Below are positions 10,711-64,000 of a DNA stretch of 64,000 bases, piece by piece. The notes under the pieces were generated by a model that saw only the letters and a list, made by a program, of their open reading frames with translations, was not told where the DNA came from and made no database searches. The position numbers and the translations under genes were made by a program. The stretch is from a virus. Location of the stretch: the IMG/VR virus record IMGVR_UViG_3300046513_000348, positions 1 through 64,000 of that record; one strand, 5' to 3'. Position 1 is the stretch's first letter, and each line of letters starts with the position of its first letter.

Positions 10711-12813
10711 ATGTATCATATTCGACTACTCAACAAACGGAACAAGTCGGCTGTTTATCCAGATGACCTCCTGATTTTTGACATCGATCGGAGTTGTCCT
10801 TTAATGGGGAATCCTATCCCTTTGGAGGACAAGGACGACGACGACATGCGTGAAGCTGTCCTCATCGAATACCGAGAACACTTCGAAAAAGAATACGCCG
10901 GTAACCCGGCATTTAAACAACGAATCCATTACTTTGCAGACCTAGTTAAGAGTGGTAAGAAACTAGGCTTTAGTTGCTGGTGTCACCCGAAGCAGTGTCA
11001 CGGCAACGTCATCATCGAAAAGATCATCCAGTTAGTAAAGAAACCCATGGCCAAGTCTATTGAAGCAAAAGCGGTTCCAGAATTCCTCGAAGAACGTTTC
11101 AAGCCGGAAGAGATTGACTACGTCGAATGCCGCTTCGTCATTCACATGCCACGCAAGACCGGCGATACGCCGTTTAACGATCATGATTGGCACATGGTCA
11201 AGGAAGTCATCCATTTGAAGGATGGTCGTACTGTCCCGAACGTTCGTTACGTCAAGGACTACAAGCGGAAGTATTGGGTGACGGCACCCCGCTTCCGCAA
11301 GAGTTACGAACAGAAGCGCGAATGGGAAACCCTGGATCGCCTGATCGAAGGAGAGTCGACCCAATCGGATCTGTACAAGAACGTAGCGATTTCGCTAGGT
11401 CGAATGGATCTGATCAAGCAGCCTCACATGTTGAAGGACTCGCCGCATATTTACGGCCTGGACATTCCTTCCTCGGTCTCTCTCAAGTACGACTATGTCG
11501 AACGCATGAACGGTAAGAAGGATACGCCGTTCAGCATTGCCTATTCGGATACTGAGACCAACATGCTGGGTCTCGAGAATGGCGCATCGAAACACATCAT
11601 CATGCAGTCGCTCTTCTTCGAGGGTAAACTGTACACGGTGATTCTGAAAGACTTCCTGGCCATCGTTCCAAGGCCAGAAGAAACACTGCGTGAGCTCTAC
11701 GAAGAACACATGCCTGAGCAAGGCAAGGAACTGGTCAAGGAATGGGAGTTCGAATTTGTCGATCAACCAATTGACATCGTCAAACGCATTCTGAAACGTT
11801 GCCATACTTGGCAGCCAGATTTCCTGTCCTTCTGGAACATGATCTTCGACTTGGACAAGATGATCGAGTGTGTCGAAGAAGCCGGTTATCGTCCTGAAGA
11901 CATCTTCTGCGATCCTCGCCTGCCTAAAGATCTGCGTACTGCTTTCCTCAAACGCGCCAACCCGAACAAGACAAGTGCTTCCGGCCGTACCATGACCAAG
12001 AAGCCGGCCGATCAATGGCACAGCTGGCTCTGCCCTGCATCGTTTTACATCATCGACCAGATGGCGTCCTATCGCTTCATTCGTAAATCGAAGCAGCTGG
12101 AACCGTCTTATGGCCTGGATGAGATCCTGGGTAAGGAACTGGAAGGTCTGGGTAAGCTTAAGCACAAGCCAGCCGAAGGTTTGAACAAAGCCGAATTCCA
12201 CATCTTCATGCAGCAGAAGTATCCGGGCGAGTATGTGATTTATCACCTCTGGGATGCCGTCTGTATGCACAAGCTGACGCTGAAGACCCAGGACTTGAGC
12301 TACTCGCTTCCTGGTACTACCGAGTACTCGGACTTCGTCAGCTTTGAATCGGAACCGAAGCGCTACATCCACAAGTTCCACCATTACATCCTGAAGAACC
12401 ACAATGCAGTGACTGGCGTGTCGGGCAAGACGCTGGTTCAGGAACACGACGAGCTGACCATCAGTACCAAAGGCCACATCGTTACCCTTGAACCTCATCT
12501 AACGGTCGATACCGGCATGAAGATCTTCAAGGACTATCCGGGCCTGCAGACGAACTTCTATGGTCACAATGCCGACTTGGACGTGAAGTCCAGTTATCCA
12601 TATGGCCAATGGGTGTTCAATATGTCACGACAGACGACCGTTCGTGAACTGGTGGACATCGAAGGCGTACGTGATCACCAACGACGCATTCAAGGCCTCA
12701 ACATCTCTGGCGGGCGCAGCAACGCGGTCGAGTTCTGTACTGAGATCTTCAAAGTACCGACCTTGGCCAATCTGGGCGACATCTTCGACAAAGCAAAAGC
12801 TGCACAAAACTAA
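10711..12813 (+). CDS. DNA polymerase B, N-terminal half (exonuclease + motif A) fused to DUF4326-like domain
   Basis: 700 aa from ATG 10711 (AAGGTGAG seven bases upstream); a GTG at 10666 after AGAGGA is an alternative. Residues 1-105 look like DUF4326: IDRSCPLMGNPIP, then GKKLGFSCWCHPKQCHGNVI. The rest is family B polymerase: Exo I DTE at 280-282, Exo II N376..D380 (NMIFD), Exo III Y511..D515 (YHLWD), and polymerase motif A DVKSSYP from D624. The protein stops about 70 residues after motif A, before any motif B or C. Those motifs lie in the gene at 61913-64000, so the enzyme is split. It should replicate phage DNA once both halves assemble. The three Exo motifs are intact, so proofreading is expected. 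Confidence 0.9.
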   Translation: MYHIRLLNKRNKSAVYPDDLLIFDIDRSCPLMGNPIPLEDKDDDDMREAVLIEYREHFEKEYAGNPAFKQRIHYFADLVKSGKKLGFSCWCHPKQCHGNVIIEKIIQLVKKPMAKSIEAKAVPEFLEERFKPEEIDYVECRFVIHMPRKTGDTPFNDHDWHMVKEVIHLKDGRTVPNVRYVKDYKRKYWVTAPRFRKSYEQKREWETLDRLIEGESTQSDLYKNVAISLGRMDLIKQPHMLKDSPHIYGLDIPSSVSLKYDYVERMNGKKDTPFSIAYSDTETNMLGLENGASKHIIMQSLFFEGKLYTVILKDFLAIVPRPEETLRELYEEHMPEQGKELVKEWEFEFVDQPIDIVKRILKRCHTWQPDFLSFWNMIFDLDKMIECVEEAGYRPEDIFCDPRLPKDLRTAFLKRANPNKTSASGRTMTKKPADQWHSWLCPASFYIIDQMASYRFIRKSKQLEPSYGLDEILGKELEGLGKLKHKPAEGLNKAEFHIFMQQKYPGEYVIYHLWDAVCMHKLTLKTQDLSYSLPGTTEYSDFVSFESEPKRYIHKFHHYILKNHNAVTGVSGKTLVQEHDELTISTKGHIVTLEPHLTVDTGMKIFKDYPGLQTNFYGHNADLDVKSSYPYGQWVFNMSRQTTVRELVDIEGVRDHQRRIQGLNISGGRSNAVEFCTEIFKVPTLANLGDIFDKAKAAQN

Positions 12814-12828
12814 TCAAAAGGAGCAAAC

Positions 12829-13167
12829 ATGGCTTACCACTACTATCGTGACGACTACAAGCCCGAGCCAGTCTTCATCAAGGACGACGAACTGGGCGAA
12901 GAGCGCTTCAAAGCGCTCGAGGAGCAGCTGAAACACTTCAAGCTGAGTCCTGAGCACACCCGAGCTCGCGACCGCACTGTGGCCGTTTTCTACTACCGCC
13001 TGGAGCTGGCCAAGCAAGCCCTGTTCCCACGTCAGTTCCCCGGTGCCCGTGAACGTCTCGAGAAGTTCCGTAAGCCGAAGTTCTTCCTCGATGCCATGAC
13101 GGATCTGGTCGAACAAGTCAAGAAGGCAGTACCGGCGCCGAAGGCCAAACGTCGTTCTAGCTGGTAA
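12829..13167 (+). CDS. Hypothetical small basic protein
   Basis: 112 aa, rich in Lys, Arg, Glu and Tyr (MAYHYYRDDYKPEPVF at the start, PKAKRRSSW at the end). It has a good ribosome site (AAAAGGAGCAAAC ATG) and lies 15 bases after the polymerase N-half, so it is probably co-transcribed. No domain is recognised. A charged, possibly DNA- or polymerase-associated accessory protein is a guess from context. Confidence 0.75.
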   Translation: MAYHYYRDDYKPEPVFIKDDELGEERFKALEEQLKHFKLSPEHTRARDRTVAVFYYRLELAKQALFPRQFPGARERLEKFRKPKFFLDAMTDLVEQVKKAVPAPKAKRRSSW

Positions 13168-13183
13168 AAAAGAAAGCATAAAG

Positions 13184-13217
13184 ATTACTCCTCCTGCCGT
13201 AAGGCAGGAGGAGTAAT
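13184..13217. terminator. Bidirectional hairpin terminator
   Basis: A 15-bp perfect stem (ATTACTCCTCCTGCC) with a GTAA (GNRA) tetraloop, between the plus-strand polymerase operon and the minus-strand SPRY-like gene. T-rich sequence (TGTTTGTTT) follows on the plus strand and an A-rich stretch precedes it, so it may work in both directions. Confidence 0.8.
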
Positions 13218-13225
13218 ATGTTTGT

Positions 13226-13813
13226 TTACCAAGGACTGAAACTTGCTGGAAGATACAGAGGACTCGGATTGATGTCGGTGATGCCGTCTATCGGACTCGT
13301 TGTAGCCGGACTACCGACGAGGGGATAGAACGGACCTGCTACACTGTTTACGTAATCTGCAATGTTTTTCAGGCCACTCGGTGCGCCATTGAAGTAGAAC
13401 TGGAAGGTACCGGAATCGAAGTCCATACCCAAGCCGAGTATTCCGCCTTGAGAAAAAGCAGCACTGAAGGTTTGACGTAAATCGCTCTTGTAAATGAACA
13501 TACCGCCGGAGAAGCTATACCAAACGACCTGATTGGTATTGGCCGCCCAGCAGTTGGTGAGGACTGCTGAATTCCGATTACTGAAGCCGATCAGTGGAGC
13601 AACATCTCCTCGTTCGAACTGGGTGGCCTTTACTTCGAAGTAGCGTTTTCCCTTGTTATAACCAGTCGTTCCGAGAACGGCACCACCGAAGCCCGTAATG
13701 TCGGCTCTCTGATTGCTGTTAGTTAGCGTAACGCCAGAGCCTTTGAAAGTTGGGTCGAAGGTCCAGCCACTAGCGGCGGCTTTCTTCTTAGAACCCAATA
13801 CCATTTCATGCAT
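13226..13813 (-). CDS. SPRY/lectin-like appendage protein
   Basis: 195 aa. After a short N-terminal MHEMVLGSKKK segment, the body has the pattern of a SPRY/concanavalin-like beta sandwich: GKRYFEVK, IGFSNRN, then ILGLGMDFDSGTFQFYFNG. Such domains in phages decorate tail fibres or capsids and bind surface glycans. The MHExxL start is shared with four other appendage genes in this window and may be a docking peptide. The ATG follows GAGGAAGAT. It is flanked by two strong hairpins, so it is probably a single-gene unit. Confidence 0.75.
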   Translation of the reverse strand: MHEMVLGSKKKAAASGWTFDPTFKGSGVTLTNSNQRADITGFGGAVLGTTGYNKGKRYFEVKATQFERGDVAPLIGFSNRNSAVLTNCWAANTNQVVWYSFSGGMFIYKSDLRQTFSAAFSQGGILGLGMDFDSGTFQFYFNGAPSGLKNIADYVNSVAGPFYPLVGSPATTSPIDGITDINPSPLYLPASFSPW

Positions 13814-13853
13814 ATCTTCCTCATTGGTTGTTTGCTTCTCTCACAGCATATTC

Positions 13854-13885
13854 CCTCTACTACTGGCGAAAGCCAGTAGTAGAGG
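13854..13885 (-). terminator. Hairpin terminator after thymidylate kinase
   Basis: A 14-bp perfect stem (CCTCTACTACTGGC) with a GAAA tetraloop, directly downstream of the minus-strand thymidylate kinase gene and upstream of the SPRY-like gene. Only a weak T-rich tail is visible. Confidence 0.7.
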
Positions 13886-13896
13886 TATGCGAGGTT

Positions 13897-14592
13897 TTAA
13901 GCAGACCGCAGGGACGGCGAGGTCAGATGGTGCAGGCGGGCACGCACGAGCTTCTTCACGTATTCCAGATCGTTGTTCGCATCGATGACCATCAGCGGGT
14001 TCGCTTCGTGGTCACGGACATGATAACGCTGGTTGAAGCCTGACTGCAAACGAATGAAGAAAGCATCGTCAGCTTTCTCGAACGCATCCTTGGCAGCAGG
14101 ACGGCTCGAGACACGGGCGCGTGAGGTTTCCAGGCTCACGTCCAGATGGACAGTGTTGTAGCCATAGATCTGCTTCCGCAGGAAGACACGTTCATCGAAG
14201 GATAGGTCTGTGAAGAACGTTTCCAGATCGAACATGTACTGGAAGACATGACGCATGACTTCATAGGGGATGCCCATGCCGTAATGCTGATAGACCCAGG
14301 TCGTATCATGCCAGCGATCAGTGATCACTACCTTACCCTCGAGGAGAGCAGGGATAATCGTTTCCTTCATAACACGGGCACGCAGTTCGAGGATCAGGGA
14401 CAGAACAGCAACGTTCGGAACCTTCTGCTGAATCCACAGATCGCGTTTGAACATCGCGTCTTCATCTCGCGGATATGCTTCGACAACGACGTTAGGAACG
14501 CCATTCTCAGTCAGGTATTCGCCCATGTACTTGGCAGTAGTGGACTTCCCACTACCATCCAAGCCTTCTACACTAAACAGCATACTTTCCAT
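13897..14592 (-). CDS. tmk: Thymidylate kinase (dTMP kinase)
   Basis: 231 aa, normal length. It phosphorylates dTMP to dTDP for phage DNA synthesis in the cytoplasm. The P-loop GLDGSGKST is at residues 10-18. The DRWHDTTWVYQ segment (about 105-115) corresponds to the family DR(Y/W)xxSTxAYQ motif. A C-terminal LDVSLETSRARVSSR followed by the lid region is typical. The ATG at 14592 follows GAGGGCAAG. It is set among fibre-like genes and flanked by hairpins on both sides, so it is probably expressed as its own unit. The family assignment is secure. Confidence 0.93.
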   Translation of the reverse strand: MESMLFSVEGLDGSGKSTTAKYMGEYLTENGVPNVVVEAYPRDEDAMFKRDLWIQQKVPNVAVLSLILELRARVMKETIIPALLEGKVVITDRWHDTTWVYQHYGMGIPYEVMRHVFQYMFDLETFFTDLSFDERVFLRKQIYGYNTVHLDVSLETSRARVSSRPAAKDAFEKADDAFFIRLQSGFNQRYHVRDHEANPLMVIDANNDLEYVKKLVRARLHHLTSPSLRSA

Positions 14593-14603
14593 CTTGCCCT
14601 CTC

Positions 14604-14631
14604 AGGTGGTTAACTAAATCATTAACCACCT
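14604..14631 (-). terminator. Hairpin between fibre gene and tmk
   Basis: A 10-bp perfect stem (AGGTGGTTAA / TTAACCACCT) with an 8-base loop, just after the stop of the minus-strand 333-aa fibre-like gene and ahead of tmk. There is no clear T-run on the minus strand, so it may act as an attenuator or RNA-stability element instead. Confidence 0.5.
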
Positions 14632-14641
14632 CTGTTTTATT

Positions 14642-15643
14642 TTAGATCATTTCCAGGACCGGTCGCCAGTAACCAGCGGTGGTATAGCCCATGGTGGCGA
14701 TGAAACCAGGATGATAGCTGTAGTACGAATACGCAGAGCCGCGCGAAATGATTGTATTCGCGGCGGTCATTTCCATCATCATGGAATCTCGGTTGATGCC
14801 GTTGCGGCTGTTATTGTCCGACTGCCATGCGACCTCTCCGTCGAAGCGTTCCCAGTTTTCACCTTTCTGGCTTGGAGCGGTCCAGGTCATGACCTTCGCC
14901 ATCAGGGAATTCCACTCACTACCACTGAGGTCCATTGTCGAATCGTAGGAATCCTGAGTGATGCGATTGCCGGTATAGCTGTTCACGGCTGGCGTGTTGG
15001 AAGCAGCGCTATACGTTTTCGTGACGTCGTAAGGATCTGGCAAACCGTGCATCAGACGAACCTTGAAGGTCGAACCTTTGATGTCGATAAATTTCTGTTG
15101 GTTGACGCCGGCCAAGGTATTGAACTCACGAGGTCCGATGCCATCGACGCCGTATACGAGACCGAGATTATACAAATCGCGCCAGTTCGTTACTGCAATC
15201 GGCTGGCGTGGTACAAACAGGATCTTGCCCTTGAATGCGAACTTGAACCAGTCCTGTACGACGGTATTACTCCTGGTCGCGTTGACAAGACCGGACCAGC
15301 TGGTGACGGTGTCCCAATCAGTGAAGTCATTGGAGTTTACCAAGCCGTAATAACCACAGCTCAGATCGCCGCCCTTCAAGGACTGATTGCCAGGACCACT
15401 ATAGAAAGTCGCCGTTGCCGCGATGTTACCGCTGCGAACTTTCTCGGTTCCGTTGAAGACTTCGAAGATGTAGTTATACGAGCCATCTTTCTCGACGGTG
15501 GTGTCGGAAAAGGACGTCGAATTGCCGGGAATCGTCGCAAGCGGCGCCGGCAGGTTTGTAGGATCGAGGGGACCAACGCCTCGATAAACATTGATACCCT
15601 CGGCATTAATGTTGGGATTGGTGAAACTAATCTTGATTTCCAT
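14642..15643 (-). CDS. Fibre/appendage protein, FnIII-like N-domain (paralogue A)
   Basis: 333 aa. Residues 1-75 look like a fibronectin-III-type sandwich (GINVYRG, LATIPGNSTSFSDTTV, YIFEVFNG). A C-terminal domain follows, with WFKFAFKGKILFVPR, LYNLGLVYGVDGIGP and a final YWRPVLEMI. Both parts are shared with the next upstream gene, and the C-terminal part also with the 369-aa gene, so these arose by tandem duplication. The likely site is the tail-fibre or capsid surface, binding host or glycan. No enzyme motif is visible. Confidence 0.75.
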   Translation of the reverse strand: MEIKISFTNPNINAEGINVYRGVGPLDPTNLPAPLATIPGNSTSFSDTTVEKDGSYNYIFEVFNGTEKVRSGNIAATATFYSGPGNQSLKGGDLSCGYYGLVNSNDFTDWDTVTSWSGLVNATRSNTVVQDWFKFAFKGKILFVPRQPIAVTNWRDLYNLGLVYGVDGIGPREFNTLAGVNQQKFIDIKGSTFKVRLMHGLPDPYDVTKTYSAASNTPAVNSYTGNRITQDSYDSTMDLSGSEWNSLMAKVMTWTAPSQKGENWERFDGEVAWQSDNNSRNGINRDSMMMEMTAANTIISRGSAYSYYSYHPGFIATMGYTTAGYWRPVLEMI

Positions 15644-15654
15644 TTTTTACCTTT

Positions 15655-16656
15655 TTACATTACCAGTTCGAGAATAGGACGCCATCCGCTGTATACCATC
15701 GAGCTCGTGAAAGTTCCCGACGTGGCGACGGTACCCGATGCATTGCCGACTGGAACCTGAGCGATGGTGGCCACGCGCGGTTCATCGCTGTAACGACGAC
15801 CACCTCGGGCGACGGCAAGACCGGCATTATTGTAGCTCGCCATTTGTTGGCAAAGGTCATGGATTCCAGCGCCGCTCTGAAGCTGACGACACACGGTTTC
15901 GTCGATGCGAGCGAATAGACCGTAAGTGGTATCCGCGTTGTGGCGCTTAGACATCATGAGTGCGCCCATGATGTCGTCGTATTCGTTGACCGCTGGAATG
16001 GTCGCATCCGGGTTCAATTTGCCCGTTGGGAGAGCTGCGCCGTCGGCAGTACCCTTCATCAGGCGAGGAATGAAGCTGAAGCCGGAGATGTCTTGCAGCT
16101 TGAATTGGTTAGTCGGCACTGCGCCGGTCGGTACCACTGGACCATTGTCGTTGGTACCGAAGACGGCTCCAGCCTGGTAGATCTGGTTGTACGAAACGGT
16201 GTCGCGAAGAACGCTACGTGGAACGAAGATCACCTTGCCTTTGTAGGCCATCTTCATCCAGCCGAAGTCCGTAGCAGCCGTACCGACTTCCAGGCCAAGG
16301 GCCGAGACCAGGCCGCCGTAGCTGATGAAGTTTGCAGAGGTACAGAAACCGAAGAGGCCGAGATCCCAATCTCCTGCCACGAGAATTTGAGGACCCGGAC
16401 CGGTATCGACAGGAGCCACTGCCAGAATCAGACGATTCTTCGTGAGAACCTCATCGCCGCCCAGGAAGACGCCGAAACGGTAGTAGTATTTGTTTCCACG
16501 GACAGCGGTGGCGTCGACGTACTGCGTAGCGCCCGGCGGAAGTGTCGCAAGCGGCTCGGGCAGGGCCGCGGAATCAATGGGAGTATCGCTACGATAGACG
16601 CGAACGCCTTCTTCGGAGCCACCATTGTAGTTATCGAATTTGATAGTAATATCCAT
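15655..16656 (-). CDS. Fibre/appendage protein, FnIII-like N-domain (paralogue B)
   Basis: 333 aa, the same length and architecture as the gene at 14642. An FnIII-like N-domain (GVRVYRSDTPID, LATLPPGATQYVDAT, YYRFGVFLGG) is followed by a C-domain with WMKMAYKGKVIFVPR, IYQAGAVFGTNDNGP and a terminal WRPILELVM. The low identity with its neighbour means the copies have diverged a lot, as expected for receptor-binding proteins under selection. It is spaced 11 and 15 bases from its neighbours and is probably co-transcribed with them. Confidence 0.75.
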   Translation of the reverse strand: MDITIKFDNYNGGSEEGVRVYRSDTPIDSAALPEPLATLPPGATQYVDATAVRGNKYYYRFGVFLGGDEVLTKNRLILAVAPVDTGPGPQILVAGDWDLGLFGFCTSANFISYGGLVSALGLEVGTAATDFGWMKMAYKGKVIFVPRSVLRDTVSYNQIYQAGAVFGTNDNGPVVPTGAVPTNQFKLQDISGFSFIPRLMKGTADGAALPTGKLNPDATIPAVNEYDDIMGALMMSKRHNADTTYGLFARIDETVCRQLQSGAGIHDLCQQMASYNNAGLAVARGGRRYSDEPRVATIAQVPVGNASGTVATSGTFTSSMVYSGWRPILELVM

Positions 16657-16671
16657 CTTTATTCTCAGTCG

Positions 16672-17781
16672 TTAAGTTGTAATGTTGACGTTCGATACAC
16701 GAACGATCGGCGTATGGATGATCTTGATCGACATCAGTCTTGCTGGATCACCGCCAGAAATAGAGCTAACGACACCAAGAGGAATCTTGAGTTCTCGAGA
16801 AGCCTTAAAATTCGTCAGGCGATTCGGATCACCGGTGGCTGCCACGTAGGTACCGCCGACTGGTTTCTTATAACCGCCATCACTGTCGAAATCGGCAAGT
16901 CGAACAATGGTAGTTTCCGTACCAGAGGCCGATGAGCCAAACACAAGTCCTGAAATCGCTCCACGAAGGAAACCGGCAACCGAGATGCGGTAGGTGCCAA
17001 GCTTGAACAGTTCGTTTTGCGCAATCAGTTCCAACACGGGACGCCAGTAATAAGCACTGGTCAGAGGTGTTCCGCCTTGAAGCGAGTAGCCCGTGATGTA
17101 AATCGGCGCGGCGCCATTAAATGATCCGCGAAGGAGCGGGGTGCCGTTGGGATAACTTGCATTGAGCAAAATTTCCCGGTTGATTTCGATGTTCGCGATA
17201 AGATCCTGCCAAGGATACTTTGCAAACTTCTTTTCCGGATAAAGAGGTATTACGTTATCGGAGACCCGGTAGAGCAATTCAGTGAACATCGATTTACGAC
17301 GAGGCGATGCGTCGGAGCCCGATGAGTTAACCACTTGAGTTGCCAGGCCGGTTTCATCGCCAGTGATGGTTCTTACCTTGAAACTGTAGGAACCCTTTTT
17401 GACGATTCGAAGCTGATCGGTCTGTCCGAACGGATAAACGCCAGGACCAATACCTTCCTCACCGTAGATGAGGCCAGCTCTATAAAGAGAAATCCAACTT
17501 GTCGAGAAGTTGGTGGATGAGAGTGTGAAAATAGCTTGTTTCTTGATGAACAGAAACTTGCCGTAGTAACGGAACTTCAGCCATGGAATGTTGTCATTCG
17601 TTACCGACGCTGCAAAGAACTCAGGAATCTGAGCCTTGAATTCGTCTGCGGTTAAAACCTCCGCATTGGATACTTCGCCGAAAAATGCAACATCGTCTGT
17701 CCCGACGGCGGAAATCGGACCAGGTCCGGAATTCGGGTAGACGAGTTTTGCTGCTCCGGCCGCTAGTAATGCTTCATGCAT
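16672..17781 (-). CDS. Fibre/appendage protein with MHEALL N-terminus
   Basis: 369 aa, first gene of the three-gene fibre operon (AAGGAG before ATG). It begins MHEALLAAGAAK, the shared appendage N-terminus, and lacks the FnIII-like domain of the two downstream paralogues. It shares their core domain: WLKFRYYGKFLFIKK, SLYRAGLIYGEEGIGP and YYWRPVLELI near residue 245. A further 120-residue beta-rich C-terminal domain is unique to it. It may be the anchored member, with the paralogues attaching to it; that is inference. Confidence 0.75.
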   Translation of the reverse strand: MHEALLAAGAAKLVYPNSGPGPISAVGTDDVAFFGEVSNAEVLTADEFKAQIPEFFAASVTNDNIPWLKFRYYGKFLFIKKQAIFTLSSTNFSTSWISLYRAGLIYGEEGIGPGVYPFGQTDQLRIVKKGSYSFKVRTITGDETGLATQVVNSSGSDASPRRKSMFTELLYRVSDNVIPLYPEKKFAKYPWQDLIANIEINREILLNASYPNGTPLLRGSFNGAAPIYITGYSLQGGTPLTSAYYWRPVLELIAQNELFKLGTYRISVAGFLRGAISGLVFGSSASGTETTIVRLADFDSDGGYKKPVGGTYVAATGDPNRLTNFKASRELKIPLGVVSSISGGDPARLMSIKIIHTPIVRVSNVNITT

Positions 17782-17840
17782 CGCAGCTCCTTAATCAGGG
17801 TTACATAACCCAGACTATCTAAAAACATACAGATAAGCAA

Positions 17841-17869
17841 AAAAAATACCCAGGTTCTGCCTGGGTATT
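17841..17869 (-). terminator. Intrinsic terminator of the 255-aa gene
   Basis: On the minus strand, the stem AATACCCAGG / CCTGGGTATT (10 bp, 5-base loop) is followed by a run of T's, a classic rho-independent terminator. It lies 14 bases after the stop of the 255-aa gene. Confidence 0.88.
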
Positions 17870-17883
17870 TTCGGATATTCCCT

Positions 17884-18651
17884 TTACACGGTTTTCATGT
17901 ATTGGGAAAGAGAGACATAGTGCGGACGGACGAAGCGATACATTGCTTCAGCCATTTGTTCCTGATGTCGCTGGTCGTCTGCCTTGAGAACCACGTCTGC
18001 AAGTTCGTGCATGTCTTTGGCCATGCCGAAATGCATGTTCTTACCGTTCTTGGAAGAGTAGTACCGAACGCGGAAGTGTTTGCCGTGATTCATGACATTC
18101 ACGCCGGGCGGAAGGATGAGTCCACTGAACTCACGCTCGTCTTTCCAGTTGTACTTGACAGGGAACCAGAGCGACTCGTTGATCGCCTCGGTGACCGTGC
18201 GGATATTGGCGAAGTAATGCTCAGATGCAGCCGCAACCATACTCTCGTAATTAGAGTAGTGAAAGTTCTTCGCGAATTCAGTTCCGCTGAATACTCGGAT
18301 CTGGATATCGCGAGGACCGCGCTTCACTACCTGCATCTTCGAGGGAAGGAAGAACACGCCGTGACCTGGAATGATCTTGACACCTTCTTCTTTACGATCG
18401 AAGAGCTTGCGCAGTTTCCCGCGCTCATTGAAAGCGATCGAATGATGCAGGGCCTTGTTGTAGGTCCTGAACGCTTCCGGCGATACCTCTCCATCCTGGA
18501 ACGGATTGAAGACATGCTGCTCTTCCTGGGAGCGAACATTCCAAGAACGCTGGAAGTCGCCGAAACGTACGATGGACAGATCGGTATCAATTGGGAATTC
18601 GCGGTCGAGAATTCGTGCTACATTTTTGCCGACAGAGATGGTCATTGCCAT
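17884..18651 (-). CDS. Hypothetical protein with AP2-like C-terminal segment
   Basis: 255 aa. The first 170 residues are unrecognised. A segment near residues 183-230 (LPPGVNVMNHGKHFRVRYYS, then GKNMHFGMAKDMHELADVVL) resembles the three-strand-plus-helix AP2 DNA-binding fold seen in phage proteins and homing endonucleases. No HNH or other nuclease residues are visible beside it. The ATG follows GAAGGATT. It ends at a strong terminator and lies downstream of the 235-aa gene. DNA binding is a moderate inference. Confidence 0.6.
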   Translation of the reverse strand: MAMTISVGKNVARILDREFPIDTDLSIVRFGDFQRSWNVRSQEEQHVFNPFQDGEVSPEAFRTYNKALHHSIAFNERGKLRKLFDRKEEGVKIIPGHGVFFLPSKMQVVKRGPRDIQIRVFSGTEFAKNFHYSNYESMVAAASEHYFANIRTVTEAINESLWFPVKYNWKDEREFSGLILPPGVNVMNHGKHFRVRYYSSKNGKNMHFGMAKDMHELADVVLKADDQRHQEQMAEAMYRFVRPHYVSLSQYMKTV

Positions 18652-18690
18652 GGTCGATTTTAATCCTTCTAAGTTTGAACAAACTGCCCG

Positions 18691-55680: not shown

Positions 55681-55722
55681 CACGATAACTATATATACTT
55701 GAGTTTTTCTATAGTTCAGGTT
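55681..55722 (-). promoter_or_regulatory. Early-type promoter, copy of 35160
   Basis: The first 22 bases are identical to 35160-35181, followed by TTTTTCTATAGTTCAGG. It is located upstream of the zinc-ribbon gene on the minus strand and just downstream of a terminator. Confidence 0.65.
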
Positions 55723-55741
55723 TTCATGAAAAGAAAAAAGA

Positions 55742-55766
55742 CCCGGAAATCGTAAGATTTCCAGGC
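55742..55766 (-). terminator. Intrinsic terminator
   Basis: A stem CCGGAAATC with GATTTCC(A)GG, GTAA loop on the plus strand, followed on the minus strand by TTTTTTCTTTTC. It ends the 159-aa gene's transcript 30 bases before the next promoter. Confidence 0.8.
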
Positions 55767-55773
55767 CCGGGCC

Positions 55774-56253: not shown

Positions 56254-56293
56254 TAAGTCTCCAACATTGTAAAATATAAAGCATAAGGAACAT

Positions 56294-56325
56294 AAATCCC
56301 AGGAGCCCGAAGGCTCCTGGGATTT
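56294..56325 (-). terminator. Terminator of the 655-aa gene
   Basis: A 14-bp perfect stem (AAATCCCAGGAGCC) closing a TTCG loop on the minus strand, 35 bases after the stop codon. The T-rich tail is weak. Confidence 0.78.
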
Positions 56326-56359
56326 ACTTAAGCACTATTGCAGTACCGATGCTGCTGGA

Positions 56360-58327
56360 TTACCAGCGGCCGCCGAAACGCTCGTCCGAGCGGTCCGAGT
56401 AGCGATCGTCGTAACGGTCGCGACCTTGACGCTGGTTGCGGTACAGGCCGCCCGAACCAGGACGGTTCAGGATCTGGTCGATGTTGCCGTAGGTGGTACG
56501 GAAACGATCGTTGCCATCGCGGCTCGACGAGGTCGGGTTGAGCGACAGCTTGCAGCGGGTGATGGCTTCCAGCAGGGCCTCGTTGAAGCCGAGGGTGAAG
56601 TTGAAGCGCTGGTGGTAGCCGGTGATCACCGAGGTCGGCACGAAGTCCTTGATGATTTCGTAGCGTTCCGATTGGGTCAGGACGTTGTCTTCGTTCGAAG
56701 TCGCAGCCATGCCCCAACGCTGGATGATCTCCAGGTCTTCTTCCTTTTCCGGGCGCAGGAAGTTCAGCAGCGCCAGGTAGTCGAAGTCACGCAGGTCCAG
56801 ACGCTGGCCGCCCGATGCCTCGGTGTAGTAGCCGGCGTGGATACGCTCGATGTGCGGATCGATGATGGCTTCCGAACGATCGTACAGGTCTTCAAAGTGG
56901 CCATTGGTCAGCACGCAGGCCGCATCGTAGATACGACGCATTGCGCTTTCATTGCCCTGCGCAGCTGCCAGCAGGTCGATGTGCTGCCAGGTGCTGGCGC
57001 CGCATTCCGGAACGTCGATCGAGAAGATGATGCCCGGACGGACGGTTGCACGCAGCAGTGCTTGACGCTTGGCCGTGGTGAACGACGAGGTTTTGGTTTC
57101 CCAGCGTTCGCCGAAGCCACGTTCCATGTCCTGCAGGTTCGGCTCGATTGCCAACGCACCGATGTTGCGCGGATCGTCTTCACCCAGGGACTGGTTCGGC
57201 TCGAAGGCACGCATCACTTCCTGCGACTCGCCCATGGCGTTCATGGTCGCCATCGCCAGCAGCATGGTCGTCGGCGAGAAGTCGACGGTGTCCACGAAGG
57301 TGGTGATGAAGCGCAGCGCGTACAGCTGATACTCTTCGCCCGAGATGCGGCGATCGCGGCGGCTGTACAGGTCGTTGCGGTTGTTGGCGCCTTCGGCCGG
57401 CGCGTAGACGAAGTCGAAGTAGCCACCCAGGCGCGAGATGCGGGTGCCGGTCACCAGCTGGTCGATCGAGTCGCGGCTGTTGCGGCCCTTGGCTTCGCGG
57501 GACTGCAGATCCACGATCACGTCGGCACGGGTCGGCATGTGGCCGCGGTCGAAGATGTGGTTCTGGCGATGCTGGACGTGCACGCTGTTGTAGGTGTCGA
57601 CGTTGTCGTCGGCGCTCAGCACCAGTGCGATCGCGTCCGGATCGTTGCGGTCGATGAAGGTCTTGATCGCGGCGAATGCGTTCTTGACGCAGTCGGCGAT
57701 TGCCTGCGGGTCTTCCTTGGCGGTCGGGAAACCTTCCGAGATGACTTCAGCGTCGGCCGAGAACAGGTTCTTGTTGCCGTAGTGGCGTTCCAGAACGTCC
57801 TTGATGACCTGACGGGTCTTGTTGTTGTAACCATCGCCCGGGACCTGGACGATGAACACGCGCTGGCCGCGATAGCTTTCTTCACGCGGACGCAGGGTCT
57901 CGGCCGAACCGGCGAGCAGGAAGGTGTGGTAGCCCACGCCCAGGTGCTCTTTGCCGCGGCGGGTGCCGGCGACGACCAGCAGCGAGAACGGGATACCGGC
58001 CGACGAGGCGTCGATCGGGAACACGCTCACGTTCAGCATGTTGTTGTCGTCTTTTGCCGGCATTGCTTCGACGAAGTCGCGGCGGAACGATTCCAGCGCT
58101 TCGGCGGTGTTGCTCATCGCCAGCGGCGTCGGGTTGGCACGGCCGATGCTCGACAGGGATGCGAAGCGGGACGGTGCATTGGTTTCGCTGCGACGCGATT
58201 CTTCACGGCGGCTGCCGCGATCTTCTTGTTGACCGCCACGATCGGTGTTGCCACCGGATTGACGCTCTTGCGCTTCTTTCATTGCCGAGCGAACTTGGGA
58301 TTGACGGTCTTGACCTTCGATTGCCAT
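56360..58327 (-). CDS. Highly expressed early protein, candidate nuclear shell protein (chimallin)
   Basis: 655 aa with the strongest G/C-ending codon bias in the window and an early-type promoter about 105 bases upstream. Residues 1-60 are a disordered Arg/Gln/Glu-rich leader. Residues 65-610 form a large globular body with no enzyme motif. The C-terminal tail ends RDRYDDRYSDRSDERFGGRW, closely resembling the tail of the mixed-charge protein at 42238. Length (about 600-660 aa), early promoter, abundance and a flexible C-terminal tail match what is known of ChmA/gp105-type shell proteins. I cannot confirm family membership from motifs, so this remains a candidate. Confidence 0.5.
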   Translation of the reverse strand: MAIEGQDRQSQVRSAMKEAQERQSGGNTDRGGQQEDRGSRREESRRSETNAPSRFASLSSIGRANPTPLAMSNTAEALESFRRDFVEAMPAKDDNNMLNVSVFPIDASSAGIPFSLLVVAGTRRGKEHLGVGYHTFLLAGSAETLRPREESYRGQRVFIVQVPGDGYNNKTRQVIKDVLERHYGNKNLFSADAEVISEGFPTAKEDPQAIADCVKNAFAAIKTFIDRNDPDAIALVLSADDNVDTYNSVHVQHRQNHIFDRGHMPTRADVIVDLQSREAKGRNSRDSIDQLVTGTRISRLGGYFDFVYAPAEGANNRNDLYSRRDRRISGEEYQLYALRFITTFVDTVDFSPTTMLLAMATMNAMGESQEVMRAFEPNQSLGEDDPRNIGALAIEPNLQDMERGFGERWETKTSSFTTAKRQALLRATVRPGIIFSIDVPECGASTWQHIDLLAAAQGNESAMRRIYDAACVLTNGHFEDLYDRSEAIIDPHIERIHAGYYTEASGGQRLDLRDFDYLALLNFLRPEKEEDLEIIQRWGMAATSNEDNVLTQSERYEIIKDFVPTSVITGYHQRFNFTLGFNEALLEAITRCKLSLNPTSSSRDGNDRFRTTYGNIDQILNRPGSGGLYRNQRQGRDRYDDRYSDRSDERFGGRW

Positions 58328-58637
58328 TTTGAAATCCTTCAGGTAGTATAAATGAAAAGTAACACACGTACAGGGATTGTCGTGTGGGTAAAAAGCTGAT
58401 CTTTGTTAGATTCCTAACATTGATCAACTTTGTAATATATCAGTGAAATTAGTTTAAAACCCAATCTCAAGGATACATCGAAGAATAGGGAACATAGGTG
58501 CCAACACGACGCAGACGTTTCATCTGCACATTATAGGAGAAATCCAATAACTTTTTACATGCTGGTGGTTTAGCCTATATCCAAGTTCATGGTATGACTA
58601 CTGATAATAGAAAAATATTTTCCATGGCCGATTAACT
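58328..58637. other. 310-bp divergent intergenic region
   Basis: It holds the early-type promoter at 58432 for the 655-aa gene, a possible leader hairpin (CACACG/CGTGTG near 58362-58385), a GCAGA/TCTGC hairpin near 58514, and the unassigned leader of the plus-strand 358-aa gene. The only ORFs are under 20 codons and look non-coding. Confidence 0.5.
58432..58460 (-). promoter_or_regulatory. Early-type promoter of the 655-aa gene (TATATTAC core)
   Basis: On the minus strand an exact TATATTAC (58432-58439) with an AT-rich block on its 5' side (reads TTTAAACTAATTTCACTGA next to the core). A 100-base leader follows. Confidence 0.7.
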
Positions 58638-59714
58638 ATGCTCAGTCTCTTTAACAATCTGTCGACCCGCATCAAAGGTACGGTCCGATTGCCCGAATGG
58701 AATTATGTCCGTGACGGCTTGATGATGAACCTGGATCATGCGAATAAGTACTATCGGAGTGGTGCTTATGCGGTTGGCTCGGATCATGAACTGATCAAAC
58801 TCCTGTTCGGATTGGCCACGTCTGTCGATCTGGACCTCAATCGTTACTACAAGACTGTTGACGCGAAAGCATTGACGGTTGCCCAGCAATTGGGCTTCAC
58901 GACCACTATGAGTAAAGGACATGTCTTCAACAATGTCTTCTTCTCGGGCAAGAGTCGTGAGGTAATCATTATTACCGATGAAACTTTCGATCCAGCAGAA
59001 GTAACTGCTAACTGGCGAGATGCAAGACCCATCAAGGTTCTGCGTCATGGCTTTGATAAGATCGACTGCTTCCCACTGACAGGAAAGATCGAGAGTAATG
59101 GCATTAGTGTCTTTGCGATCAATCTCCCGATGCTGGCTGTCCAGTATCGTGCCTATCGTGAATGGCAGAATACGTACGTAACTGAAGCGACTGGTCGTAA
59201 CTCGATCTATCATTTCTGCTACGCGTATCCAATCAATAACATGATGTACGAAGCAATGGATCACGCGGTGTTCAATCGCATGGTTCGCATTCATCAGGGT
59301 CTTCCGACTTCGGACAATGAGTTCCAGCATCCGTTCCATGTGACGAACTATACGGATCGCTGCGATCGCTTGTTGTCAATGCTCAATGAAGATCTGAACG
59401 ACATGCATCGTGACATCGGAAACATTGCGATGACCATCCCTCTCGTGGATAAGAGCGATGCTTTCCAACTCCTGAAGCTACCAGACATCTCCGAGTCGCG
59501 TCAAGTGAACTGGGCGATTTATCTGGCGCGTATCGACATGCTGCTGTTCTTCCTGGACTTCAAGGGCGTGAAGAATCAAAATGCGAACGAGGTCAACCGA
59601 ATCAAGTATGAGCTCAAACTCTACTTGAAAGACGGCACGATTCAAAGTGCTGTCCCGGCAGAACTCTTCCAGAAACAAAGAGCGGTGATTGAAAGACTCG
59701 TTGCGACGCTATAA
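58638..59714 (+). CDS. Hypothetical protein
   Basis: 358-aa mixed alpha/beta protein with no motif I recognise. The ATG at 58638 has only a weak upstream purine stretch. Codon use is moderate. It stands alone on the plus strand between the candidate shell protein and the appendage cluster and ends at a 16-bp hairpin terminator. It was checked for tubulin-type (PhuZ) and nucleotide-binding signatures and has none. Confidence 0.68.
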   Translation: MLSLFNNLSTRIKGTVRLPEWNYVRDGLMMNLDHANKYYRSGAYAVGSDHELIKLLFGLATSVDLDLNRYYKTVDAKALTVAQQLGFTTTMSKGHVFNNVFFSGKSREVIIITDETFDPAEVTANWRDARPIKVLRHGFDKIDCFPLTGKIESNGISVFAINLPMLAVQYRAYREWQNTYVTEATGRNSIYHFCYAYPINNMMYEAMDHAVFNRMVRIHQGLPTSDNEFQHPFHVTNYTDRCDRLLSMLNEDLNDMHRDIGNIAMTIPLVDKSDAFQLLKLPDISESRQVNWAIYLARIDMLLFFLDFKGVKNQNANEVNRIKYELKLYLKDGTIQSAVPAELFQKQRAVIERLVATL

Positions 59715-59716
59715 CG

Positions 59717-59752
59717 CATATACTCCCTGGCCTCGCGGCCAGGGAGTATATG
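59717..59752. terminator. Bidirectional terminator, convergent junction
   Basis: A 16-bp perfect stem (CATATACTCCCTGGCC) with a TCGC loop, between the plus-strand 358-aa gene and the minus-strand appendage genes. The plus side continues TTGTTTG. Confidence 0.85.
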
Positions 59753-59762
59753 TTGTTTGCCT

Positions 59763-60422
59763 TTAAAACAAGAACGGGGCTGCCGGTGGGGTGAAGTCGG
59801 CCTTGTAGTACGCCACATTACTGTCGACCCGGAACTCGTCTGCGTATCCACAAAGCGAATACGAAGTAATTCCTGTCCAAGTAAAGATGGCGTCCATGGT
59901 GACCGATTCCACAGGCGCAATGCGTTCGAGTACTTTCTTTCCATCCACAAAAAGGCGATGGATTTCGCCTTCTCGAGTCGATGCAAAATGTTGCCATGCG
60001 TTGTAGTACAGCGGTACTGAGACAACTACGATGCCTGTGGTATTGAGCCACATGGCTACCGTATTCGGATCTGGACCCAATGCCATCGGAATTTGACGGG
60101 CTGTTCCGATGCGGTTCGAGATAAGAGGCATCATATAACCGCTTGGATTTGCACCCGTACGGTAAATGTAGCATTCGACCGTGTAGTCTCCCGCCAGAAC
60201 AATCTGGTCGTTCGTTTCGAAGAGCAGGTTTTCGTAGTTGAAGAAGGCCGAACTTCCGCCGAACTTCGACTGAGTTGTGGAAATGTACGGACTGCCATTG
60301 CGGACAAACGTGCGACCGTATTCGTCTTTAAAGTTTGTCGAGTTGTTTGCGCCATCGAAATGCAAAAGAATGTTATTTCCTTTGTACTTCTTCTTGGCAT
60401 TGAGTAGGTTTGCTTCATGCAT
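59763..60422 (-). CDS. LamG/concanavalin-A-like appendage protein
   Basis: 219 aa. It starts MHEANLLNAKKK, the shared appendage N-terminus. The remainder is a LamG-type beta sandwich: ILLHFDGANNS, TTQSKFGGSSAFF, DYTVECYIYR, WQHFASTREG, YADEFRVDSNVAYYKADFTP. Such domains bind sugars on tail fibres or capsid decorations. The ATG follows GGAG. It is last of three in a row of appendage genes and ends at the convergent terminator. Confidence 0.8.
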   Translation of the reverse strand: MHEANLLNAKKKYKGNNILLHFDGANNSTNFKDEYGRTFVRNGSPYISTTQSKFGGSSAFFNYENLLFETNDQIVLAGDYTVECYIYRTGANPSGYMMPLISNRIGTARQIPMALGPDPNTVAMWLNTTGIVVVSVPLYYNAWQHFASTREGEIHRLFVDGKKVLERIAPVESVTMDAIFTWTGITSYSLCGYADEFRVDSNVAYYKADFTPPAAPFLF

Positions 60423-60434
60423 ACTTGACTACTC

Positions 60435-61157
60435 CTAAATACCGCGATCCGAGAAAGCTCGCGATGGAATCGTGAAGTCGCTGATGTAACGTGCAACTCC
60501 CTTAGTGATTCGAATGTCGTCGGCGTTACCATCAACCGATTGCGCATATGCCGAGCTGGCACCAATACGAATCGGATAACCAGACTGGGCATTAAGAATC
60601 TTGTTGTCGGTTCCGGTACCCAGTAGAACTCCATTCAGGAAAATTCGAATGGTGCCATTTTGTCGAGTAACGGCGATGTGATTCCAGAACCTTAAGGGGA
60701 TGCCTCCTGAAACATTGCCATCGATATAAGCTTGGTTTGGTGTGGCTCCATTATAGGCGCCGTCGTAGGAAATCCATTCGATCGTTCCGTTACCGTTAAT
60801 ACAACGGAGAATGAAGTTGCCGTTACCTGCAACCGCATACTGGGAGTGACCAATCAGGCCAGTATTGCCGCTCAGTGCATTGAACCAATACCAGCCTTCG
60901 ATCGTGAAATCGCCAGGAAGTTCAAGATCCGTGCCAGTGAATTCCACATAGCCTTTAGCAATTGCCAATGACCGAGGTCCGAACTTAGGCGTTCCATTCG
61001 GGAAGATATATGCGCCGTTATAGGCTCTGATTACGTGATTTTTTTGATCGATGAAACTGATACCATCTGCGCCACCATCAAAATGTGACAGAAAGATGAC
61101 TTTATCCCAATAAGGATCCGGTGGATTCAGTTTCGCCAGGAGTAAAGGTTCGTGCAT
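60435..61157 (-). CDS. LamG/concanavalin-A-like appendage protein
   Basis: 240 aa, paralogue of the preceding gene: MHEPLLLAKLNPPD start, VIFLSHFDGGADG, GDFTIEGWYWFN, FWNHIAVTRQNGTIRIFLNG, and the typical ending DDIRITKGVARYISDFTIP. It is probably a glycan-binding appendage. The 39-base leader before its ATG is nearly identical to that of the 198-aa gene, so expression is likely matched. Confidence 0.82.
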   Translation of the reverse strand: MHEPLLLAKLNPPDPYWDKVIFLSHFDGGADGISFIDQKNHVIRAYNGAYIFPNGTPKFGPRSLAIAKGYVEFTGTDLELPGDFTIEGWYWFNALSGNTGLIGHSQYAVAGNGNFILRCINGNGTIEWISYDGAYNGATPNQAYIDGNVSGGIPLRFWNHIAVTRQNGTIRIFLNGVLLGTGTDNKILNAQSGYPIRIGASSAYAQSVDGNADDIRITKGVARYISDFTIPSRAFSDRGI

Positions 61158-61161
61158 ATTC

Positions 61162-61200
61162 GATCCTGTAAAAAATTATTTGTTCTATCACAGTATCGAC
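61162..61200 (-). repeat. Duplicated leader/late-promoter candidate, copy 1
   Basis: It contains a 20-base block (61162-61181) and a 13-base block (TCACAGTATCGAC, 61188-61200) identical to 61836-61855 and 61862-61874. The spacer differs slightly. Both copies precede appendage genes on the minus strand. They may be a shared late promoter or the trace of a gene duplication. Confidence 0.6.
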
Positions 61201-61228
61201 TACTCCTGGCTGAGGCCAGGAGTAGTCG
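61197..61228 (-). terminator. Terminator of the 198-aa gene
   Basis: A 14-bp perfect stem (CGACTACTCCTGGC) with a TGAG loop on the plus strand, directly downstream of the 198-aa gene on the minus strand and overlapping the leader repeat of the next gene. Confidence 0.78.
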
Positions 61229-61234
61229 TGCCTA

Positions 61235-61831
61235 TTAGATTCGTTTAGCCGAGAAGCCAAGCAAAGTCCATTTGGCCGGGAATGAGAAGGAACTCGTAAT
61301 GACTCCATTGGAGCCGTTTAGATAACTTCCGAATACCCAATCCCACGTATTTGCGTAAATGCCAGGGTAATTCAAAGTCAGGATAAGATTGTCATTCAGG
61401 TAAACATAGTAAAAGTCACCCTGCCGCCTGAGAACGATTTTCTGTTCGATGCCAAATTGGATTTTGTACGGACCCGTCATGGTCGCCCATCGGTTATTAT
61501 AGACATAGTTAACCGACCCGTCTGCTTCGATGCAAATCATCCATGATGGAGGATCACTTCCCTGTCGATAACGGCTGAACAGATCTAGCCTTGTTGACGG
61601 AATCGTTTCGACAACAAAACGACAAACGATCTCGGTATTTTCTCCTACCAATGATGGGGTTCCAGAATAAGGAATGCGCATCCAGTTAACTTGCTCAGCC
61701 GTAAAGCTATAGCTATCTCCAACTTTAGTTACGCCAGAAGACTGTGTTGGGGTTCCATTAAAGCCATCAATGTTGATTCCGGTAGCTGAGCCGAACTTCG
61801 GTTTCTTCTTAGTAAGTAGAGCTTCTAGCAT
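61235..61831 (-). CDS. Lectin-like appendage protein
   Basis: 198 aa. It starts MLEALLTKKKPKFGSATG, a variant of the shared N-terminus. The body is a beta sandwich (FTAEQVNWMRIPYSG, EIVCRFVVETIPSTRLDLFS, YYVYLNDNLILTLNYPG) related in style to LamG and phage-tail concanavalin-like domains but without the RITKGVARY ending. The ATG follows AGGATCTGAG. Confidence 0.7.
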   Translation of the reverse strand: MLEALLTKKKPKFGSATGINIDGFNGTPTQSSGVTKVGDSYSFTAEQVNWMRIPYSGTPSLVGENTEIVCRFVVETIPSTRLDLFSRYRQGSDPPSWMICIEADGSVNYVYNNRWATMTGPYKIQFGIEQKIVLRRQGDFYYVYLNDNLILTLNYPGIYANTWDWVFGSYLNGSNGVITSSFSFPAKWTLLGFSAKRI

Positions 61832-61835
61832 CTCA

Positions 61836-61874
61836 GATCCTGTAAAAAATTATTTATTCACTCACAGTATCGAC
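61836..61874 (-). repeat. Duplicated leader/late-promoter candidate, copy 2
   Basis: The matching copy of the element at 61162-61200, here just before the 198-aa gene. See that entry. Confidence 0.6.
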
Positions 61875-61876
61875 GC

Positions 61877-61902
61877 CTCCCCTAGCCTTTCGGCTAGGGG
61901 AG
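61877..61902 (-). terminator. Terminator of DNA polymerase C-half
   Basis: An 11-bp perfect stem (CTCCCCTAGCC) with a TTTC loop (GAAA on the minus strand), 11 bases after the polymerase stop and abutting the leader element of the appendage gene. Confidence 0.75.
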
Positions 61903-61912
61903 ATGCGCTCGA

Positions 61913-64000
61913 TTAATACAAGTCGTAAATCATTCGTGTATTTTTCTTATTGGCCATACCAACGCCCATTGCTTCTAGGATGTGGTAATAGGCACCGCAG
62001 GATTCGCGAACGATCTTGCGTGCATTCGAACCAGCCAGTATCTCGTCAGGGATACCGGAGATTTGAACGATGCTCACTGGAACGTAAAGAGTCGTAAGGA
62101 TCTTGCGACCAATCCTTTCCATTTCGGTTTTGATGTCTTCAACAAGACGTTGGTCCTTGATCTGTTCGAGCCAAGTCGCAAACTCAGTCACGTTGTTAAC
62201 TTCAAGCGAAACCTTCAGCATGGTGTAAGGAGGCTCATCAACCATTCCGTAGACTTTGCCGAATGTACGATTCCAGAACAGATGGTTCCAGTACGGGGTA
62301 CGATCCTCGTCCTGAACCTTGTAGGCCTTTGCAGGCTTCAAGTGAGCCATCTTGAAGTACTCGGTCTTGCCGGATTTCACATCGCTGTAGATTCCGTTTT
62401 CCTTCTCGGCGATGGTGTCGATCAGATCGTTCAGGTAGATATCCTTCCCGGCCACTATGTCTTTCATCTGGTCGAGCAGGAACTTCTTCACATTCTTCAC
62501 GATATCACCAGGCGTAGCTGAGGAGATCATGTTCGCACCCTTCAGTTCCAGTTCCGGCTTCTTAAAGACGTTACCTTCCTGAGCAGATTTCATTGCCCAG
62601 TAGTGCTTTGCCATCAAGGTTGGGACGAAGATGTCGAACTTGTACTCGTTCTTCATCTGCACGTCGAACAGACGATCGCGATGGACGCCATAGTTCGCGC
62701 TCATCTTGGCATGCAGGTGCGAGGAGGTCTGTGCTGCGAGATAAACTACAACGTCAGACGTCGAGTTCATTTCGTCAGTGAAACCAATCGTACCGTAAAT
62801 GCGCTGAACCCATTCCTGTACGGTGAACAGAGTCGAGTCAGTATCGCCACCCAGCACGGAACGACGGACCGAGGTCGGGAAGTTACCGGTGGATGCTGGC
62901 ATGTTGTCGCTGAGCCAGAATGCATTGATGATCGGCTGTACGCCAACGAGGACGTCGTTGATGTTCTTGGCCACATGCGCCAGAATGCCGTAGTTGCGTT
63001 CGTCGGTCTTGCGAATCTCTTTCGGCTTCATGCCTTTCGAGAAAGAACGGCACAGCTGACGAGCCAGATTGAGCGTATCTTCCGAAACAGCTTTCAGAAC
63101 GAAGTCGGCTTCTTCAACTGGTAGGGATTCACTCGGAATCCAAATCAGACGACCAAGCAGATCCGAAACGAATTGCTTGTTGTGCTTGTACAGATGGTAG
63201 AAATCACCAACGTACACAAATGCCGCACGTTCCAGCGGAGACATCTTCGAGATGAACTCGTACACCGGACCCATCATCTTGTTCGACTGGAAGTACAGCT
63301 GCCTGGACCGCTCGATACATTCCAATACTTCGTCGGATGTCGGATAAGCCAGGCCGTAGATCCGCATTGCGGTTTCGACCTTTTCCATGTCGGTGATTTG
63401 CGAGATCGACACCAGGTTGTTCAGGATGGTATCGACGTCCATGTAATGGCGATTGCCTTCGATGAACTTCTCGTTGTTGGCGTTACCGTACGCCGTGGTA
63501 TTGCGGCAGTTCGTCGTGAGGGACGAGTGCGAGGTCGGATTGAACAGGCAGGTCGACGGAGTCAGCGATGCGCCCGACAGCGAGTTGTTGGTGGTCTTCT
63601 TGTTATTCTGTTCGAGGTTCTTAAAGATGTACAGAACATCGTCACCAGCATTCTTCGCATCGAACATCTGACCCTTACTAATGTCTCGGCCCACGATGTT
63701 GTCCATGGTGTACAGGGACAGAAGCGATTGTCGCACATCTGGCGAGCAGTAAGAGGTGAAGGTCGGTGACATGGATTCGTCGTTAGCGATCACGTCCGAC
63801 AGGTATTTCGACATCGTAGTTTCTTCGAGACGGCGGTCTTCGAAGTTGCTGCGATGCAGGAAGCGAACCTTCGGGTCATGGAATTCAAACAGACCACCCG
63901 GGCGTAGGTTTTGGATAACGAACTCGCGAGCTTCTTCCAGCGAGATGTTCTTGGTTTTGTGGAGATAGAAAGATGCCTGGTCAACGTAACCATTGAGCAT
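61913..64000 (-). CDS. DNA polymerase B, C-terminal half (motifs B and C, thumb)
   Basis: At least 695 aa; the frame is open to the window edge with an ATG exactly at 64000, so the true start may lie outside. Motif B (KKTTNNSLSGAS at 134-145) and motif C (GGDTDST at 384-390, the two catalytic Asp residues 386 and 388) are present, and the thumb KHY at 465-467 followed by LKGAN at 486-490 matches family B polymerases. The exonuclease domain and motif A are absent; they are encoded at 10711-12813. The two halves must assemble to make one replicative polymerase. It is downstream of nothing else in the window and ends at a hairpin terminator. Confidence 0.9.
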   Translation of the reverse strand: MLNGYVDQASFYLHKTKNISLEEAREFVIQNLRPGGLFEFHDPKVRFLHRSNFEDRRLEETTMSKYLSDVIANDESMSPTFTSYCSPDVRQSLLSLYTMDNIVGRDISKGQMFDAKNAGDDVLYIFKNLEQNNKKTTNNSLSGASLTPSTCLFNPTSHSSLTTNCRNTTAYGNANNEKFIEGNRHYMDVDTILNNLVSISQITDMEKVETAMRIYGLAYPTSDEVLECIERSRQLYFQSNKMMGPVYEFISKMSPLERAAFVYVGDFYHLYKHNKQFVSDLLGRLIWIPSESLPVEEADFVLKAVSEDTLNLARQLCRSFSKGMKPKEIRKTDERNYGILAHVAKNINDVLVGVQPIINAFWLSDNMPASTGNFPTSVRRSVLGGDTDSTLFTVQEWVQRIYGTIGFTDEMNSTSDVVVYLAAQTSSHLHAKMSANYGVHRDRLFDVQMKNEYKFDIFVPTLMAKHYWAMKSAQEGNVFKKPELELKGANMISSATPGDIVKNVKKFLLDQMKDIVAGKDIYLNDLIDTIAEKENGIYSDVKSGKTEYFKMAHLKPAKAYKVQDEDRTPYWNHLFWNRTFGKVYGMVDEPPYTMLKVSLEVNNVTEFATWLEQIKDQRLVEDIKTEMERIGRKILTTLYVPVSIVQISGIPDEILAGSNARKIVRESCGAYYHILEAMGVGMANKKNTRMIYDLY

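Follow-up and report, generated by a model that had tools for sequence, protein, structure and literature searches.

Two distant genes predicted to encode one φKZ-type family B DNA polymerase in a phage genome

Two genes carrying polymerase motifs

The DNA analysed here, hereafter the window, comprises the first 64 kb (64,000 nucleotides, nt) of the 218,660-bp virus record IMGVR_UViG_3300046513_000348, and contains two genes related to family B DNA polymerase (PolB), situated on opposite strands with their ends 49.1 kb apart. Exo I to III and motifs A, B and C are all present when the two encoded chains are combined. The first gene, at 10711-12813 on the plus strand, encodes 700 residues comprising the exonuclease and the part of the palm with motif A (the exonuclease half), and is orthologous to gp82 of phage phiKZ (φKZ); an alternative in-frame GTG start is possible at 10666. 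The protein matches PHROG 3011 ("DNA polymerase") at residues 129-699 (2e-192), and its 3'-5' exonuclease domain, at 11536-12300 (+), carries Exo I (D280/E282), Exo II (N376/D380) and Exo III (Y511/D515). Polymerase motif A, DVKSSYP, lies at 12580-12600 (+) and aligns with DLTSLYPS of RB69, the catalytic Asp being D624 (D624-V-K-S-S-Y629-P630). The stop codon follows 70 residues after motif A, and the C-terminal tail at the split site (12646-12810, +) contains conserved G652, R659, N671 and P683. An earlier sequence-only reading of the window had described a gene with Exo I to III and motif A that then stops, and the open reading frame (ORF) and all motifs were located as it claimed.

The second gene, encoding the fingers, the C-terminal part of the palm and the thumb (the polymerase half), occupies 61913-64000 on the minus strand of the window and is the orthologue of phiKZ gp50. 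The same reading had assigned it motif B, motif C and the thumb, without exonuclease or motif A; these contents held, but the end coordinate of 64000 did not, as the gene is complete in the record at 61913-64054 (713 residues). The additional 54 nt beyond the window edge encode 18 residues that bring neither an exonuclease nor motif A. Pfam PF20286, "Divergent Family B DNA polymerase", spans the whole polymerase half (4.8e-259), which also matches PHROG 2927 "DNA polymerase" (3.6e-247). In full-length numbering, an N-terminal extension at the split site (residues 1-92; 63779-64000, -), mostly unaligned with gp43, precedes motif B, KTTNNSLSG (K153-x3-N157-S-L-S160-G161; 63572-63598, -), in which the usual Tyr is replaced by Ser, a change absent from the sequence-only reading. 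Motif C, DTDS (D404-T-D406-S), is at 62834-62845 (-), and K483-x-Y485, the equivalent of the K706/Y708 motif of RB69, is at 62600-62608 (-) in a segment aligned with RB69 705-760.

Evidence for a single divided polymerase

A profile of 11 exonuclease halves aligned with RB69-type gp43 at positions 106-225, 281-348 and 409-430, the last of these being motif A, whilst a profile of 12 polymerase halves aligned at 435-569 (fingers, motif B), 617-647 (motif C) and 705-760. On T4/RB69 gp43 the two profiles are in the same order and abut with zero overlap, placing the cut near RB69 430/435. The two proteins of phage AR9, whose sequence is less diverged, fall into the same pair of PHROGs (8.6e-128 and 2.4e-170). 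The AR9 exonuclease chain contains PF03104 followed by positions 45-91 of PF00136 (26.4 bits, with a cut-off of 23), and the AR9 polymerase chain contains PF00136 positions 103-211; similarly, on PHROG 262, which represents intact polymerases, the former covers 18-449 and the latter 565-828. As the AR9 chains divide both PF00136 and PHROG 262 in order, the cut is placed inside the palm, between the first catalytic strand and the fingers. Judged by these sequence comparisons, the two genes together encode a single family B enzyme, divided between motifs A and B, in agreement with the sequence-only reading, which had joined the halves in this order; the profile searches it suggested against family B polymerases gave collinear matches to gp43 and a "DNA polymerase" PHROG for each half.

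No protein in the 218,660-bp record reached the cut-offs of PF00136 or PF03104, the sequence being too divergent, although these cut-offs were passed elsewhere by both halves of AR9 and by the polymerase half of phage EL. Searches of the record with PF00136, PF03104, PF00476 and PF07733 detected no other polymerase of families A, B or C, and PF20286 and the exonuclease-half profile gave one match each. A second intact family B polymerase, which the sequence-only reading had named as grounds for abandoning its proposal, was therefore not found in the record.

Named phages and IMG/VR supplied 81 exonuclease-half and 92 polymerase-half sequences, in which conservation was assessed. The D and E of Exo I, the Y and D of Exo III, and the D, Y and P of motif A are invariant (81/81), and the N and D of Exo II are kept in all but one sequence (80/81). 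In the polymerase halves, the K, N and G of motif B, the DTD of motif C and the K-x-Y motif are likewise invariant (92/92), with the motif B Tyr (RB69 Y567) being Ser in 91 of the 92 and kept by AR9 only. The catalytic residues are divided between the chains identically throughout, and with such residues invariant or nearly so among relatives, chance is excluded. Extensions on both sides of the split site are conserved as well: the distance from the motif A Asp to the C-terminus is 68-147 residues in all 81 exonuclease halves (median 80), and all polymerase halves start 109-213 residues before a conserved finger Arg (R123). To judge from this sequence conservation, the extensions may form the interface between the chains. 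The identity-based distances of the two halves across 30 genomes are strongly correlated (r = 0.978, Mantel p = 0.0001). This correlation is vertical co-inheritance, which is needed for contact but is no proof of it.

Structure models were made of single chains, with the numbering of the polymerase-half model being full length minus 18. The polymerase half was modelled with a predicted local distance difference test (pLDDT) score of 86 and a predicted template modelling (pTM) score of 0.81, and the exonuclease half with a pLDDT of 80 and a pTM of 0.72. Matches of both halves in the PDB were headed by gp43 of the T4/RB69 type, with best E-values of 8.1e-13 for the exonuclease half and 2e-4 for the polymerase half, global TM-scores of the latter being low (0.2-0.3). 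The exonuclease domain was predicted very confidently (pLDDT mostly >90), whilst residues 613-647, which include motif A, were below 50, and model residues 371-390 of the polymerase half, around motif C, had block means of 67 and 55. Such dips near motifs A and C are expected of an active site that would form only upon assembly, an indirect indication from the models.

These lines of evidence make it very probable that the two genes encode two subunits of one φKZ-type replicative family B DNA polymerase, the metal site of which would be completed in trans. Several observations weigh against this. The alignment of motif A by itself with RB69 is weak (0.5 bits), which makes AR9 an important bridge; the case for motif A in the exonuclease half rests on AR9, position and invariance. 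The least confident stretch of the polymerase half, model residues 143-159, adjoins motif B, and the low model confidence near the motifs may be explained in other ways. Two genes carried by the same phages would be expected to be co-inherited even without contact. The record itself may be slightly incomplete, its close relatives having genomes of 223-228 kb.

Genomic setting and the DUF4326 fusion

With tblastn, the exonuclease half was found in 274 phage records and the polymerase half in 279. A search of IMG/VR, in which a five-sequence alignment was used for the exonuclease half, yielded 22 contigs with both halves, on opposite strands in 21 of the 22 and about 28-47 kb apart when circular maps are allowed for (one contig is a fragment of 79.8 kb, and its linear gap, 47 kb, was taken). 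From the position of the halves on opposite strands and far apart, the sequence-only reading had concluded that the split is genetic and not a frameshift. The split recurs in 270 phage records or more, usually with the halves on opposite strands and on either side of the same core block, so that related phages do share it, a point which that reading had proposed to check.

The 49 kb between the halves is collinear with phiKZ gp49-gp82 and includes genes for the nuclear shell protein, subunits of the multisubunit RNA polymerase, SbcD and a helicase. The nuclear shell protein (chimallin) gene is at 56360-58327 (-; PHROG 4795, 3e-157). Directly upstream of the polymerase half is the SH3DP gene (record positions 64170-64586, -), which relates to phiKZ gp49 and matches PF20287, "SH3 fold domain associated with phage DNA polymerases" (2.1e-29); SH3DP is a possible third subunit. 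Elsewhere in the window, three consecutive ORFs (333, 333 and 369 residues) at 14642-17781 (-) match a single ORF of phage SURPRISE13 with 26-28% identity, which from the sequence points to a possible lineage-specific tandem expansion.

The exonuclease half additionally carries an N-terminal DUF4326 domain (PF14216; residues 25-103, 10783-11019, +; 3.8e-12 by Pfam in the record), a fusion absent from the sequence-only reading. DUF4326 belongs to the rhodanese-phosphatase superfamily, with a proposed action on ADP-ribose phosphates (PMC9503650). The domain is conserved in three close relatives, namely SURPRISE13 and two IMG/VR genomes (223,932 and 222,888 bp), so that the fusion is found in four Ralstonia/Burkholderia-type phages including the present one, and it was not detected in a 56% identical relative (L107). 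In SURPRISE13, the annotated start of the polymerase gene (L026 4192, PP856017.1:184191) lies inside DUF4326 and trims part of the domain; the alignment favours a start ~110 nt upstream of the annotated one.

Assembly, origin and known split polymerases

We infer a heterodimer in which the two chains would associate non-covalently. Chain 1 would consist of DUF4326, an N-domain, the 3'-5' exonuclease and the first strand of the palm, which bears motif A. The fingers with motif B, the remaining palm with motif C, and the thumb would make up chain 2. The metal site would be built in trans, from the motif A Asp of chain 1 and the motif C Asps of chain 2, and proofreading would proceed as in T4/RB69 gp43, with the primer end shifting from the two-chain site to the exonuclease site on chain 1. 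Others have shown that knock-down of either phiKZ gene impairs the phage: in an antisense oligonucleotide (ASO) screen, ΦKZ050 and ΦKZ082, both annotated as DNA polymerase, were among the top hits (PMC12571901). A literature search found no paper dealing with how the φKZ polymerase is built or with its enzymology, and the main texts of φKZ co-fractionation and Grad-seq papers do not name the gp50/gp82 pair.

The split is ancient, being shared by φKZ-like phages and the AR9/PBS1 lineage, and is vertically inherited. Its probable origin is a gp43-like gene that a mobile element or rearrangement severed between the fingers and palm strand 1; the resulting fragments would then have drifted apart and acquired sequence at the cut. 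Group I introns (RF00028) were observed in the exonuclease-half gene of relatives, at 4339-4644 in L169 (phiPA3), 3962-4290 in L126 and 3980-4273 in L136 (two IMG/VR contigs), and in all three the ORF is interrupted at the codons of motif A. Further RF00028 introns, at 3849-4200 and 4354-4687 in L161 and at 3937-4358 in L173, are associated with a break at a second site shortly upstream. The ORF likewise ends at motif A in L139 and L154, in which an intron was not detected. Introns at the motif A codons in relatives show that mobile introns target this spot, and insertion is therefore a plausible cause of the ancient split. The split may also have been kept as useful, in that the metal site would arise only when two proteins, expressed and perhaps also imported separately, come together, which would license DNA synthesis only inside the phage nucleus; in the Ralstonia/Burkholderia clade, DUF4326 would place the proofreading chain under additional control linked to a nucleotide or ADP-ribose. 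This proposal is rather unlikely.

A different division of labour was proposed by Iyer et al. 2021 (PMC7824862), who described the palm fold in the PF20286 chain and the exonuclease as "encoded elsewhere". The PF20286 protein would then be a complete polymerase, and the other gene a stand-alone proofreading exonuclease joining the replisome. The homologous part of the PF20286 chain begins after motif A, however, and it is the exonuclease chain that carries, in all 81 sequences, an invariant motif A of the DxxSxYP type aligned with that of gp43. Over its palm-A region the AR9 exonuclease chain moreover exceeds the cut-off of PF00136, and the annotators of AR9 recorded an exonuclease plus a "partial catalytic domain", rendering a self-contained PF20286 polymerase improbable.

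It is more improbable still that the halves are rejoined into one chain after transcription or translation, by a trans-splicing intron or a split intein. For jumbo phage MIJ3, the DNA polymerase B is reported to contain a split intein (PMC6892783), and group I introns do lie within the exonuclease-half gene of relatives, but these sit upstream of the normal end of that half without link to the other, Pfam finds no intein domain in either protein, and conserved extensions are present at both split-site ends in all relatives. The arrangement is described here from a single virus record, which would fit a decayed polymerase gene or an artefact of assembly or sequencing. Yet the catalytic residues are intact, and 270 phage records or more, as well as the 22 IMG/VR contigs with both halves, show the same arrangement; an artefact or frameshift was rejected on this recurrence in hundreds of records, its probability being negligible.

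The two-subunit polymerase favoured here is a new example of a known φKZ-group trait, not a new kind of enzyme. The split, which the sequence-only reading had implied to be a surprise, was already published for φKZ-related phages: passages in papers on SPN3US attribute the split subunit DNA polymerase, first reported in OBP and represented in SPN3US by gp18 and gp44, to Cornelissen et al. 2012 (PMC5105663, PMC5694885). The present genes share 33% and 31% identity with phiKZ gp50 and gp82, both annotated as DNA polymerase, and have the same cut, flanking core block and SH3DP gene beside the polymerase half. The phiKZ halves are on one strand, whereas those of the present phage are on opposite strands and its exonuclease half additionally carries DUF4326. 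The orthologues in 201phi2-1 are gp83 and gp144, the latter noted for an exonuclease domain like that of T4-like polymerases. Burkholderia phages SURPRISE13 and FLC6, together with the two IMG/VR genomes of 223,932 and 222,888 bp, differ by sequence divergence only, with 72-75% identity.

The AR9/PBS1-type split PolB (AR9 gp131 and gp151) belongs to the same two PHROG families and has the same cut, but is far closer to classical PolB, keeping the motif B Tyr, and its genes are on the same strand ~15 kb apart. In Aeromonas phage 25 and 44RR, PolB is also cut between motifs A and B, with motif A in gp43A and motif B onward in gp43B, and gp43A and gp43B of phage 25 are reported to co-purify with DNA polymerase activity (PMC2988022), a biochemical precedent for a two-chain enzyme. 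In phage 25, however, the cut is within the fingers and the two neighbouring genes flank a homing endonuclease gene, whereas the present cut precedes the fingers and the genes are 49 kb apart; the Aeromonas split is a separate event in T4-like phages. An archaeal B-type polymerase in two polypeptides, that of Methanothermobacter (Kelman et al. 1999), is listed in PMC3984812.

A replicative polymerase with its catalytic metal site derived from two unlinked gene products is unusual, though found in hundreds of φKZ-like phages. What is added here is the palm-internal cut across the family, unlike the palm in one chain of Iyer et al. 2021, which argues against the published self-contained polymerase with a stand-alone exonuclease, and predicts that neither chain would be active alone and that the motif A Asp of one chain would be essential for synthesis by the other.

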